From contig CAJNDT010006136.1 of NCBI GenBank assembly GCA_905221615.1, forward strand, positions 1,045,001 through 1,109,000: 64,000 nucleotides of DNA, in the 5' to 3' direction. The translations under genes and the position numbers were made by a program. The DNA is from Symbiodinium sp. CCMP2592 (lineage: Eukaryota > Sar > Dinophyceae > Suessiales > Symbiodiniaceae). This document shows, in pieces, positions 15,489 to 62,259 of the stretch; positions within the stretch are counted from its first letter, which is position 1; each line of letters opens with the position of its first letter. The notes under the pieces are model-generated. The model was given only the letters and a program-made list of their open reading frames with translations, did not search any database and was not told the origin of the DNA.

Positions 15489-15688
15489 CTTGGAGGTTCA
15501 TGGATAGATATATGGGTTCCTTTGAGGGTCCCTTTAAAGGGATCTACAGGGATTCTATGAGGGTATAGCATTTAGGGCCTACTTGGAGGTTCATGGGTAG
15601 TTATAAGTGGGGTGAAAAGTCCCCTAATACAGGTTGTAAGTATAGTTACCTCAGTAACCCCAATTATAACTACCCATGAACCTCCAAG
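15489..15688. repeat. PalA composite: arm + telomere/TTTAAAGG cassette + full PalA
   Basis: A PalA arm (ACTTGGAGGTTCATGG, 15489-15511) is followed by a cassette with CCCTTTAAAGGGATCTACAG and a TTTAGGG word, and then by a complete PalA (15582-15688) starting with the same arm. It is the mirror image of the composite at 58491-58695. The full copy is flanked by TA on the left and CA on the right. Confidence 0.8.
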
Positions 15689-16193
15689 CAGTGTTTAGGA
15701 ATCTGCCAGGTCAGGGTGTAGGTAAGATGTGAATCTCGGGATTTGGCTGCGGAAGATGGGGCTTAAAGATTCTGCAACGGTCAAGTTTCGCAAAGTAGTC
15801 CCGAATGAATTGTCAAATCAGGAACTTGCCCTGACAGTAAACCCTTATCCCTGTCATCCTAGGCCGTTATGCTCAGTTTTTTCGAAAGTACATTGGCTAA
15901 CAAGAGGTGAGGCTTTCAATGTAATTTCTGCTCTACTAGTAGAGGAGCAAGGATGATTCACACTATGTTATTGCGTCTCCTCCAGCCAGATATCAACACT
16001 TCGTCCCCGACAATCTACGCTGATTCCGAGGGTTGTTGTTACGATTCTGTGCGGTGTTTGGGGTTTGTAGGGTTTCGTCTTATCGTACATTGTGCCAAGC
16101 AGGTCCTGGTAAAATTATCCCAGCATGATGCCTGGACCAAGGAGCACAAAGCCTCACATCCGAGCCCTCCAGAGGAGGGCACGACCTTACAGC

Positions 16194-16301
16194 CCCTAAG
16201 GCTCCATGTACCCTTATAGCATATACTTAGGCCTTAAAGTACCTATGTAGGGACCCCTTTAAGGCTTAAGATCTACTATAAAGGTACATGGAGCCTTTGG
16301 G
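16194..16301. repeat. PalD palindrome with 3-bp duplication AGC
   Basis: Left end CCCTAAGGCTCCATGTACCC, right end GTACATGGAGCCTTTGGG, centre with AAAGTACCTATGTAGGGAC. Exact AGC flanks lie at 16191-16193 and 16302-16304. Confidence 0.85.
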
Positions 16302-16326
16302 AGCTGATTTGAGAGCCCTAATATAA

Positions 16327-16422
16327 GGGGCATTGATACTTACCCATAGTATTGTGAGGGTTCCAATTCATATAATTATAGCATAATGGCCCCCACAACC
16401 CTGTTCTAATTATAAAGGCCCC
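16327..16422. repeat. PalM palindrome, diverged
   Basis: Starts AGGGGC and ends TTATAAAGGCCC; the centre resembles other PalM copies (ATAATTATAGCATAATGGCC). Confidence 0.6.
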
Positions 16423-17137
16423 TGTTTTACCACCCGAACCCCCAACAACTTCCACCCCCAAACGCCTAATCTAGGGTTTGGGGGCAAAACAGACGGCTTC
16501 GGGTTTAGTAAACCCTCAACCCGAAACACCGCAAAGTGCTGAGATCACCAATCAGTGGCCCCTTCGATCTGGCGAAGTACGCCCGAAGGAGTTCCGCACT
16601 GAGCAATTTTTGCCCTTGAGATCCTGTAACAGAGCCCTTACAGGAGCCCTTCAAGGATCCCATGAGGGTTCTGACAGGAGTTTCGATTATTCTTACAGGG
16701 TTTCGCTAACTCTTGCAGGGTTTCTACAACTAATTCTCTGAGGCTTCTATAATGCTTCAGGGTTTCCAAGCTCTTTCGTGTTTTTTTGCAAGGGTGCTAT
16801 AATTGTACCGTACTTTTGGGTTTGGGGTTGACGGCCGTGAGATGCCTAGAGCTTGGGGCTTAGAGTTTAGGGGTTTAGGGCTTTGGGTTTGGAATGTAGG
16901 TGTTCAGGACGTCGGGTTTAGTGCTATGGGCTTGGGATTTAGGATTTAGGGCGTAGGGCTCATAAGATTCGGCTTGCAGTGTCCATAAGAAGTCACTCGG
17001 GTTTGACCGTCCTGGGACGTTCTGAGCCATAGTAGTTTGTGTCTGGAATATTTAACCCACACGTCTGAAGCTGCATCGTCCAAACAATGGCTTGCACTAG
17101 GGTCCCCATGGCCATCCAATTCATCCCTACAGTGATC

Positions 17138-17231
17138 CCGAGAAAGTTGGAACACGAATTGAGGATGATTGGTGCTGGGATTCCCTATATGCTACCCTAG
17201 GGGCGAGGATAATGATGTTCCAACTTTCTGG
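17138..17231. repeat. PalG palindrome
   Basis: Arms GAGAAAGTTGGAACA and TGTTCCAACTTTCTGG enclose a centre similar to the 31.3 kb copy. Confidence 0.75.
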
Positions 17232-17286
17232 CCTCTACTTTAAACCGTAGCCCTAGATCCCATAAGCTGTGCTTACGACAACCCTA

Positions 17287-17398
17287 CTTGGAGGTTCATG
17301 GGTAGTTATAAGTGGGGTTATAAGTCCCCTAATACGGGTTAAAAGTATAGCTACCCTACTTATATTACCCTACTTATTGCTGCCCATGAACCTCCGAG
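17287..17398. repeat. PalA palindrome
   Basis: CTTGGAGGTTCATGGGTAGT at the left and CATGAACCTCCGAG at the right; flanks TA/TG. The centre holds GTCCCCTAATACGGG. Confidence 0.85.
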
Positions 17399-17483
17399 TG
17401 CTGTCTGGTGTTTAGTAGGGAATGGGGGAATGGATCCCTATAGTAGTCCCTATATTATAGTCCCCATAGCCCATTCCCCCATT

Positions 17484-17591
17484 CCCAGAGACTCCAATAT
17501 CCCTTATTCAGGAACATGTTTCAAATCATATTAGGGATCCTACTATAATTTCAGGTATATTCCTTAATTAAGGGATATTGGAGTCTCTGGG
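17484..17591. repeat. PalC palindrome with 2-bp duplication TT
   Basis: CCCAGAGACTCCAATATCCC to GATATTGGAGTCTCTGGG, flanked by TT at 17482-17483 and 17592-17593. Confidence 0.85.
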
Positions 17592-59957: not shown

Positions 59958-60072
59958 CATGGGAGTTTCCGAAAATAGGGGACCCTAATATGGTACCCGG
60001 TACCCTAAACAGTAGGATCCTTATTATAAGGACCCCAAAATATGGTACCCCCTATTTTCGGAAACTCTCAGA
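59958..60072. repeat. PalF palindrome
   Basis: GGGAGTTTCCGAAAATAGGG to CCCTATTTTCGGAAACTCTC. Confidence 0.8.
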
Positions 60073-60124
60073 TAGCACAACCCTGCTGAAGGCCAAGGCG
60101 AGTCCTAGACGCCCCATTACCTAC

Positions 60125-60249
60125 ATGGGTGGTGGTCAAAATTAGGGTTCCTTTTTGGGTCCTTATTATAATACGGCACCTAATATTTAGGGTGCCCAAC
60201 TAATATTTAGGGTGCCCAAAGAGGGACCATAGTTTTGACAACCACCCAC
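60125..60249. repeat. PalE palindrome with internal duplication
   Basis: TGGGTGGTGGTCAAAATTAG to TTTTGACAACCACCCA; AATATTTAGGGTGCCCAA occurs twice in the centre. Confidence 0.8.
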
Positions 60250-60474
60250 ATTTTCCGTGAATTGCCATACTGTGCGGCAACACACTCTGTGTATGTGTAC
60301 ATACGAAGGATCTGAAGGCAATCGCCTACTACATGTAGCGTTCCAGGTAACGAAACTTTGGTGGTGCTAAGCATTCGGATGAGGCGGCATCAATAATCAG
60401 TACTCGTATGTAGATGTATTCGATGTTGTAGTCTAGGGCTTGCGTTCGGCTCGGGAGCATGCTCTGGGTATCGG

Positions 60475-61077
60475 ATGAAAAGACAGATGGTGGACATCTG
60501 TGAGGACTTTACCAACCAAACACGGGCCCAGAGCTACAGGAGCTTTCATACACCGAGCTGCAAGCGGTTTCAACAGCTTGGCAGTGTCAGCACATCCCTT
60601 TATGGAGCCAGACAGCGAGACGCACAACTGCCAGATTCTGCAGATCCCTACATGGAGCCGCACGGAGTTTGCCGGCCAAGAGATCTTCGATGGCTTTCTT
60701 TTGATTGTGGACCATGCTTGGAGTTACCGGCCATGTATACTTTGGAGGTTCATGGGTAGTTATAAGTGGGGTCATTTAGTCCCTTAAAATGGTTCAAAGT
60801 ATAGTTGCCCTACTTATACTTGTAACACCCATGAACCTCCATGTATACCACATGCGCCCGATGCACACCAATCAGCTGTGCAGGGCGTCAGCAGGCTGCA
60901 TGTTGTGTGGGACAGGATGCTACCCGCGGAGCAAGCAACGCCGCTGAAATGATTGTACCTACCTGCATTTGCCTATATAAATTTATGGGATCAAGCCATT
61001 TCCCGCTTGAGGGTGCCCCGGTAACTCCAGCTGTGGCTCATTCTCTGCCATGCGTTTCGGATGACCTTGGCTGTTAA
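60475..61077 (+). pseudogene. coding-like island interrupted by PalA
   Basis: From ATG 60475 a frame reads MVDICEDFTNQTRAQSYRSF and RPRDLRWLSFDCGPCLELPA, then meets an in-frame TAG inside PalA (60757-60759). After PalA (60841-61077) the same phase is open with CARCTPISCAGRQQAACCVG. Removing 108 bp (PalA plus one ATGTATAC) yields about 165 codons. A second frame, with QEIFDGFLLIVDHAWSYRPC, is also open across the junction, so the true frame is uncertain. No family is recognised. Confidence 0.35.
60741..60840. repeat. PalA palindrome flanked by ATGTATAC
   Basis: TTTGGAGGTTCATGGGTAGT to CACCCATGAACCTCC. ATGTATAC occurs at 60733-60740 and 60841-60848; it may be an 8-bp target duplication or partly diverged PalA ends next to TA. 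Confidence 0.8.
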
Positions 61078-61505
61078 CCCTGGGTTCCCATAAAAACTAA
61101 AAGCCATGGAATTTGTTAGCCTAGAAAAAGGATTGCCCTCGGAAGGGCACTGCTTTTCATACATGTTCGCAGCACTGAACGGTGCTTCTTCCAAGCAATC
61201 CTGTAAGCCCGTAAGCCCACAGCAGTGCTGTTCAGGCGTTCGATAGGGATTCAACTCTATGTCCCAAGCAAAACCCTCACTGCCTATACCTTAACCCATT
61301 TTGACTCCAAATCTTACCTCTGATCTCTAAGCCCCATGAGCCTTAAAGCCCCAAAGCCTATTAGAAGGTTTTGAAGGGCCTCTGACTCTGAGAGTGAAGG
61401 CCCTAAACCCTAAACCCTCTTGCGAGGTCGGAGATCCTCGATTGCCCCTGAAGGTGCCAGCAGGGACTGAACAGAGATTCCCTCAGGTTCTATAAGGGTT
61501 TAGGG

Positions 61506-61555
61506 TATAAGGGTCCGTGTACCGAATTAGAATATACTTTGGGCCCAATGTACCC
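61506..61555. repeat. PalD left half
   Basis: AAGGGTCCGTGTACCGAATT to CTTTGGGCCCAATGTACC; the rest is missing. Confidence 0.6.
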
Positions 61556-61948
61556 CAAAATGGAGCGAAGTGGATTGCACGGGTTTGGGGTTTAGCGGGA
61601 TTATGTTTGCAGTCGTATTGTAAAGTGTGACCGCGCACATCTCTGTCGATCTTATCGTTAAAAAGTCAAAGCTATACCCCATGCCCTAAGGCCCGAAGAA
61701 TAATTGGCCCCAACCCGAAACTAAACTGCAAACCCCAACAAGTTGTTCCACATAACTGCAGTAAAGCTAGTACATGTTTCCTCAACGCATAAGGGAGCAG
61801 TAGACTAGATGTGGGGGTGTGGTGTTTGTTTTCGGGGGTTGGGGATTTAGGGTTTAGGGTTTGGGGGGTGGGATCTCGGACTTCAAACGGCATTTTGGGT
61901 GTTTAAAGCTTTGAGGGCTTAAAGGATCTTCAGTCTACATCATAAGTA

Positions 61949-62056
61949 TATGTGGGTGGTTGTCAAAATTATGGCCCCTTTTTGGGTACCCTAAATATTA
62001 GGTGCCATCCTATATTAGGGACCCAAAAAGGGACCCTAATTTTGACAACTACCCAT
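61949..62056. repeat. PalE palindrome, TATG flanks
   Basis: TGGGTGGTTGTCAAAATTAT to TAATTTTGACAACTACCCA; TATG on both sides. Confidence 0.85.
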
Positions 62057-62065
62057 ATGTAGCCC

Positions 62066-62259
62066 CAAGGGTCCATGTACCCATATAGAGATACATGGGC
62101 CCCAAAGTACCTATGTAGGGACTACATTAAGGCCAGTCTATATACTACATGAATACATGGACCCTTATACCCTAAACCCTTATAGTAATAGATCCCTTAA
62201 AGGATCCCTTATGGTACCTTTAAAGGAACCTGAACTATATGAGTACATGGACCCTTAGG
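62066..62259. repeat. PalD composite: full PalD + cassette + repeated end
   Basis: PalD from CCAAGGGTCCATGTACCCAT to ATACATGGACCCTTA (62167), then CCCTAAACCCTTATAG, GATCCCTTAAAGGATCCCTT and CCTTTAAAGGAACC, then the repeated end ACTATATGAGTACATGGACC. Confidence 0.85.

Follow-up and report, generated by a model that had tools for sequence, protein, structure and literature searches.

The window, by which we mean the whole stretch of DNA analyzed, is 64,000 nucleotides from the dinoflagellate Symbiodinium sp. CCMP2592 (bases 1045001-1109000 of contig C5274; genome 1.098 Gb, 5383 contigs). It contains short hairpin elements, several of which are joined to a telomere-like cassette. These composites share one layout: a hairpin of ~100-125 bp, a CCCTAAA/CCTTTAAAGG cassette of 50-75 bp and an extra copy of a hairpin arm, referred to here as the lone arm. 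The hairpin arm beside the cassette is the inner arm and the other is the distal arm. All three parts are present at the six sites named in a preliminary description of this DNA and at a seventh, 28112-28252, that it had listed as probable; there, the decayed lone arm was seen by eye only and was missed by the automatic repeat test. PalA, PalC and PalD hairpins also occur in plain form (Table 1).

Table 1. Composites and plain hairpins of the window, in window positions.
Feature	Position	Strand	Parts or further copies
PalA composite	15489..15690	-	lone arm 15489-15513, cassette 15514-15577, hairpin 15578-15690
PalB (B2) composite	20970..21199	+	hairpin 20970-21095, cassette 21096-21170, lone arm 21171-21199; inner arm lacks its last ~12 bases
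Decayed PalD composite	28104..28256	+	hairpin remnant 28104-28179, cassette 28180-28228, degenerate lone arm 28229-28256 (arm by eye)
PalD composite	46405..46606	+	hairpin 46405-46503, cassette 46504-46580, lone arm 46581-46606
PalA composite	58491..58692	+	hairpin 58491-58603, cassette 58604-58667, lone arm 58668-58692
PalC composite	58863..59060	-	lone arm 58863-58901, cassette 58902-58955, hairpin 58956-59060
PalD composite	62064..62259	+	hairpin 62064-62162, cassette 62163-62230, lone arm 62231-62259
Plain PalA hairpin, no cassette	17283..17397	-	further ones 20070-20188, 56166-56277
Plain PalC hairpin, no cassette	57513..57615	-	further ones 17490-17591, 19066-19165, 30023-30129
Plain PalD hairpin, no cassette	33728..33825	+	further ones 52754-52852, 59123-59218

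End sequences among the hairpin families include CTTGGAGG, CCCAGAG and CCCTAAGGGTCC. PalA and PalB both end in CTTGGAGG, B1 hairpins score about 41-43 bits with the A hairpin profile, and the PalB hairpin of the window scores 24 bits with that of B1. Judged from these sequences, PalA and PalB look related, and the window is therefore counted as holding three hairpin lineages, not the four unrelated palindrome families first reported. Cassettes are nevertheless carried, with one polarity and a similar word order, by families that show no evident kinship (A/B, C, D, E and F, of which E and F come from outside the window). A common origin of the hosts is therefore not enough to account for them, in agreement with the preliminary description. 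Families G, H and I each gave one or two cassette examples in the sample. Two forms of E, E1 (5 copies) and E2 (2 copies), have different cassettes and different repeat lengths. The B1rev form has the same cassette as B1, preceded by the same TAGA, with the hairpin turned and a lone arm of the other type.

The sample comprised 314 kb, made up of the window and stretches L005-L029, which were picked by position and not by content and are not strictly random; two of them adjoin the window, and 2.5 kb of L012 is N. A further 76 narrow stretches (L030-L105) were taken from genome searches. An ungapped scan of 264 kb (the window and 20 stretches of 10 kb) found 190 hairpins and, after block shuffling, 0; removal of telomere-type hairpins left 161, with a median span of 113 bp. 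The adjacency analysis of the full 314 kb included 213 hairpins.

The cassette consists of words of 7-13 bp, typically CCCTAAA (0-2 times), CCCTTATAGAA, CCCTATAGAT, CCCTTTAAAGGAG, CCCTTTAAGGAA and CCC. In most families its CCCTAAA start adjoins the hairpin, and its usual end is AAGGAACCC. A first profile, built on the seven window cassettes, which it recovers by construction, gave 52 raw matches of at least 20 bits in the 264 kb and 0 of at least 15 bits in the reversed sequence. A refined profile built on 15 cassette strings gave 52 merged cassettes of at least 20 bits in the 314 kb, 42 of them outside the window; its reversed control yielded 7 matches, the best at 6.5 bits. Among nine cassettes, 25 of 36 pairs preserve word order beyond the level of unit-shuffled strings at the 5% level, with uncorrected p values, non-independent pairs and strings trimmed by hand.

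Cassettes are placed with one polarity relative to hairpins. Of the 45 merged first-profile cassettes that reach at least 20 bits, 20 have a hairpin on their CCCTAAA side and 2, including one flanked by hairpins on both sides, have one on the opposite side (null 5.5%). The same rows outside the window gave 16/37 and 2/37, with two of the 37 short of flank on one side. With the refined profile the counts were 27/51 and 2/51 (null 7.6%; one of the 52 was dropped for missing flank), and both other-side cassettes also have a hairpin on the CCCTAAA side. Counted from the hairpins, composites are a minority: an adjacent cassette points inward at 23 of the 213, versus 1 outward (binomial p 3e-6), as scored by a strict ungapped detector that misses known composites (0/18 for C, 0/6 for G).

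The lone arm varies in length, from about 25 bp in A, 31 bp in B1, 36 bp in B1rev, 33-39 bp in C and 22-28 bp in D to 47 bp in E1, with 10-46 bp in single copies; repeat boundaries were partly read by eye, and single copies were not counted systematically. At informative consensus sites it follows the inner arm in B1 (4/4), B1rev (4/4) and D (1/1), while A and C have no informative consensus site. The lone arm in B1, B1rev and D therefore copies, in direct orientation, the arm that adjoins the cassette, and a fold-back that used the distal arm as template is rejected for these three. Of the 27 cassettes whose CCCTAAA side has a hairpin, 20 show a direct repeat scoring at least 11 (cross-pair null 15%), so the claim that the host arm is always repeated was too strong. 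Cassettes also occur away from palindromes, where the preliminary description had suggested looking: 24 have no hairpin, and 4 of these have a direct repeat (null 4%), three of them in one array at L018. The repeated arm is not of constant length, at about 10-47 bp, and a target duplication of constant length is rejected. An element that duplicates a long target of constant size thus fits poorly, as the repeat varies and is indistinct where cassettes lack a hairpin.

Inside each family, hairpin, cassette and lone arm together form a single element of ~200 bp that is dispersed in the genome and has fixed junctions. Genome searches with whole composites scored, for each query, the best 40 of 1730-4091 candidates, most similar first. 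Places covering at least 90% of the composite numbered 38 for A, 40 for B1, 38 for C, 40 for D, 35 for B1rev, 21 for E and 22 for F (the F query held some flank); these near-full-length counts, made by eye and including the query itself, say nothing about the share of composites among hairpins. In alignments of 20 A, 20 B1, 20 C, 7 B1rev and 5 D copies, the inner and outer junctions are identical in nearly all copies. Because the composite disperses as a unit with fixed junctions, most copies derive from its spread and not from a fresh event, and the repeated arm is the working right end of the element. That the cassette is simply part of one ancestral long element, which the preliminary description had named as evidence against its idea, thus holds inside families but not between them, where unlike hairpins share cassette words in similar order.

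Several properties of the composite are those of a transposon. It spans ~190-215 bp and its outermost arms are inverted repeats, with left-outer pairing of 0.93 in C, 0.88 in A and 0.76 in B1. Of 20 C sites, 16 have flanks that agree over exactly 2 bp, against a mean of 2.1 and a maximum of 6 in shuffles; these duplications comprise many different dinucleotides, and 3-bp flank matches are absent (0/20). Matches over 4 bp were found at 0/20 sites in each of A, B1 and C. In C, pairing of the left arm reaches 93% of cells for the outer arm and 84% for the inner arm, and the left and outer arms change together, with 25 concordant cells against a null of 10.8 (maximum 19). A and B1 show no excess of such concordant change over shuffles. 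Conversion that keeps the arms alike in every copy is rejected, as concerted change occurs only in C and apparently at the subfamily level. When the A composite is folded as single-stranded DNA, its left arm pairs with the lone arm (z -4.3; equaled by 0/200 shuffles). The elements are short non-autonomous DNA transposons with near-perfect hairpins, similar to miniature inverted-repeat transposable elements (MITEs), and are dispersed family by family.

Arm and cassette also occur together in tandem, as an 84-bp unit at C2502:251250-251757, a 103-bp unit at C2068:763433-763875 and a further array at L018:7012-7379. Other arrangements were seen as well. At L013:2801-3127 a B1-type hairpin is nested inside a PalA composite, at the cassette junction. 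At L019:3276-3489 a PalD hairpin is followed by two consecutive cassettes, at the end opposite, relative to the loop, to that of the window copies. A stretch at L016:9658-9981 has a GGAGTTTCCGAAAA-type hairpin with a cassette on each side, both CCCTAAA ends facing inward. Cassette vocabulary without a defined module forms a long run of degenerate CCTTTAAAGGAA-type 12-mers at L011:1941-2305, and an array of about 56 telomere-type heptamers lies at 26725-27115 of the window.

We favor, with evenly balanced confidence, the explanation that template switching gave hairpin MITE-like transposons a telomere-like tail on more than one occasion, and that the tailed forms then spread as units. A strand copied out of the hairpin would leave its template, copy a G-rich, TTTAGGG-bearing template from its TTTAGGG side for 50-75 nt, and re-enter the old template slightly upstream, so that the end of the arm would be written twice (about 10-47 bp). 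The tailed form would then move as a ~200-bp unit whose outermost arms serve as terminal inverted repeats. What we infer is the switch, its donor, a direction of gain and not of loss, and how many gains there were. Template switching is favored by the direct copy of the adjacent arm, its variable length, the single polarity and the hairpin setting. More than one gain is suggested by the differing E1 and E2 cassettes, by the lack of evident kinship among the families and by the word order kept between them. Of the three mechanisms in the preliminary description, template switching at a hairpin best fits the founding event; it does not account for most copies, which come from composite spread.

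A number of observations weigh against this explanation. In the single copy G (L018:2271), the lone arm matches the distal arm at its one informative base. By eye, the re-entry junctions have no constant microhomology. Neither an empty nor a plain orthologous site was seen, and gain in place was not observed. Junctions are consistent inside families, as the preliminary description had asked; between families, 11 of the 36 cassette pairs fail the word-order test, and 7 of these 11 involve E. Polarity is less marked among cassettes of 15-20 bits, with a hairpin on the CCCTAAA side at only 3/20 versus 1/20 on the other side. As A and B1 composites sit mostly at TA, their 2-bp flank matches (15/20 for A and 18/20 for B1, with L050 and L051 in B1 representing a single duplicated site) are no more frequent than in shuffles. 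No transposase turned up, although no search was aimed at a transposase or autonomous partner. Finally, the cassette and TAGA junction common to B1 and B1rev may reflect a single gain, after which the hairpin was inverted and the arm converted; a flip of the hairpin alone is rejected as the origin of B1rev, since it would leave the lone arm unchanged and a conversion step is needed besides.

Alternatively, the cassette may be mobile in its own right, as a short module such as a reverse transcript of a telomere-like RNA (telomerase RNA or a telomere-repeat transcript) that inserts at hairpin ends with a variable target duplication. This would account for one cassette lying at opposite ends of a shared hairpin in B1 and B1rev and for TTTAGGG at one fixed end, and published loci of the TERC-ITS class of interstitial telomeric sequences (ITS) insert telomere repeats and RNA-derived sequence in one step, according to the cited part of the source (PMC8537989). 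Yet away from hairpins the direct repeat is found at few cassettes, mostly those of the single L018 array, the word number of cassette bodies varies between families, and TERC-ITS loci, in the same part of that source, show deletions, random additions and no transposon bias; we consider such a module unlikely. Break repair, with telomerase-type addition or of another kind, may have made the cassette, and would leave traces similar to those of template switching, as would reverse transcription of such an RNA. When (CCCTAAA)9 was searched for chromosome ends as a cassette source, the places among the matches listed lay inside contigs. Those matches also bear on a chance neighborhood of common repeats: CCCTAAA words and 12-mer arrays are very common in this genome, interstitial telomere arrays are frequent, and (CCCTAAA)9 alone has 9950 overlapping exact matches genome-wide. 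Chance is nonetheless scarcely credible, being already contradicted by the polarity, by arm repeats above the null and by alignments with junctions fixed across dispersed copies.

Another rival is loss rather than gain. Here the composite would be the old form in every family, plain hairpins would be losses by recombination between inner and lone arms, and the arms would have diverged around a cassette that was inherited or retained for its function. Such a deletion is favored by direct repeats of the arm that lie about 60-90 bp from each other, and plain and tailed B1 have the same right-end type. The cassette is also less diverged than the hairpin middle in A (0.060/0.102), B1 (0.038/0.091), C (0.032/0.104) and B1rev (0.027/0.082), though not in D (0.039 vs 0.036), among copies that were selected by similarity to a query including the cassette, which biases the comparison. 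On the other side, the A, C, D, E and F hairpins lack evident kinship though their cassettes align, and E has two different cassettes. An inward cassette was found beside 0/29 J, L and K2 hairpins versus 17/67 in A/B, D, E, F and H, in a grouping that was chosen after the counts were seen and that left out C (0/18), G (0/6), I (1/8) and "other" (5/85). As the same ungapped detector gives 0/18 for C despite its composites, this absence weighs little in favor of gain; a single ancestral composite for all families is therefore kept as a rival, and loss, for which our estimate was raised, is doubtful rather than dismissed. Two same-family hairpins might also have flanked telomere-like DNA and moved together, the second being mostly lost to leave the lone arm. 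This accounts for a lone arm of variable length that matches the inner arm, but leaves the 23:1 polarity unexplained and needs the same word order of telomere-like DNA each time, and we regard it as very improbable.

Other features of the sample lie outside these composites. A minus-strand open frame of 3770 aa at window 3-11312, which reaches the window edge and has RVT_1 at aa 2772-3014, is a long interspersed nuclear element (LINE)-like element in a 60% GC part of the window, and a minus-strand frame of 2531 aa at L006:3-7595 has RVT_2 (copia-like reverse transcriptase). A tandem array with periods of 65 and 126 bp occupies window 56989-57338, with no relation to cassettes seen. The window gave no Rfam family at gathering score and no tRNA in a scan with bacterial settings, and three dinoflagellate spliced-leader words had 0 matches in the 314 kb. 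A short perfect palindrome used as a marker occurred at 67 places and carried little information.

Extrapolation from the sample to the whole genome gives several hundred thousand hairpins, roughly 80,000 of them tailed, so one recurrent route of copying or repair could have shaped an appreciable part of this DNA. The tailed hairpins offer one reason for scattered telomere-like words in such a genome, and they are a testable structure in which interstitial telomere-like DNA, the replication of hairpins and the evolution of transposons meet. A bolder and rather improbable extension of the template-switch explanation is that a host process, copying a telomere-like G-rich template onto strands that leave hairpins, tailed many unrelated transposons with the same polarity, that tail and spare arm aid spread, and that the lower divergence of the module in 4/5 families reflects function. 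The parts, hairpin MITE-like elements and interstitial telomere-like DNA, are known in kind, and their combination is new as far as the literature was searched; that literature, mainly abstracts and including parts of PMC11453091 and PMC10666404, gave no description of telomere-like tails on hairpin elements.

Among known systems, MITEs and other palindromic (hairpin, foldback) elements are the closest. Like them, the elements described here are short and non-coding, with plain forms, and three defining features of MITEs are found: terminal inverted repeats, target duplication (2 bp, in C) and high dispersed copy number. Unlike MITEs, the tailed forms add a telomere-like module and a third arm copy, across families and with one polarity. 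Introners of dinoflagellates and other algae, reported in Symbiodinium microadriaticum, are likewise short and non-autonomous with inverted ends, but the S. microadriaticum introner has a 4-bp target duplication and forms introns, at least in the portion of the report cited here (PMC9860276), whereas C composites have 2 bp and 4-bp matches are absent from A, B1 and C. Vertebrate interstitial telomeric sequences also join telomere repeats to non-telomeric sequence, and TERC-ITS are thought to arise by copying during repair (PMC8537989, in part). TERC-ITS are the nearest published case in the literature covered, but they show no preference for transposons and have no arm copies. The module described here adjoins transposon ends and comes with a direct repeat of the arm, 27/51 cassettes having a CCCTAAA-side hairpin against the null of 7.6%. 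Short templated insertions at yeast breaks are similar in being very short templated copies made via fold-back; as far as the cited part of that work describes them (PMC11724301), they are inverted duplications, whereas the composites have a direct arm copy with the telomere-like module between.

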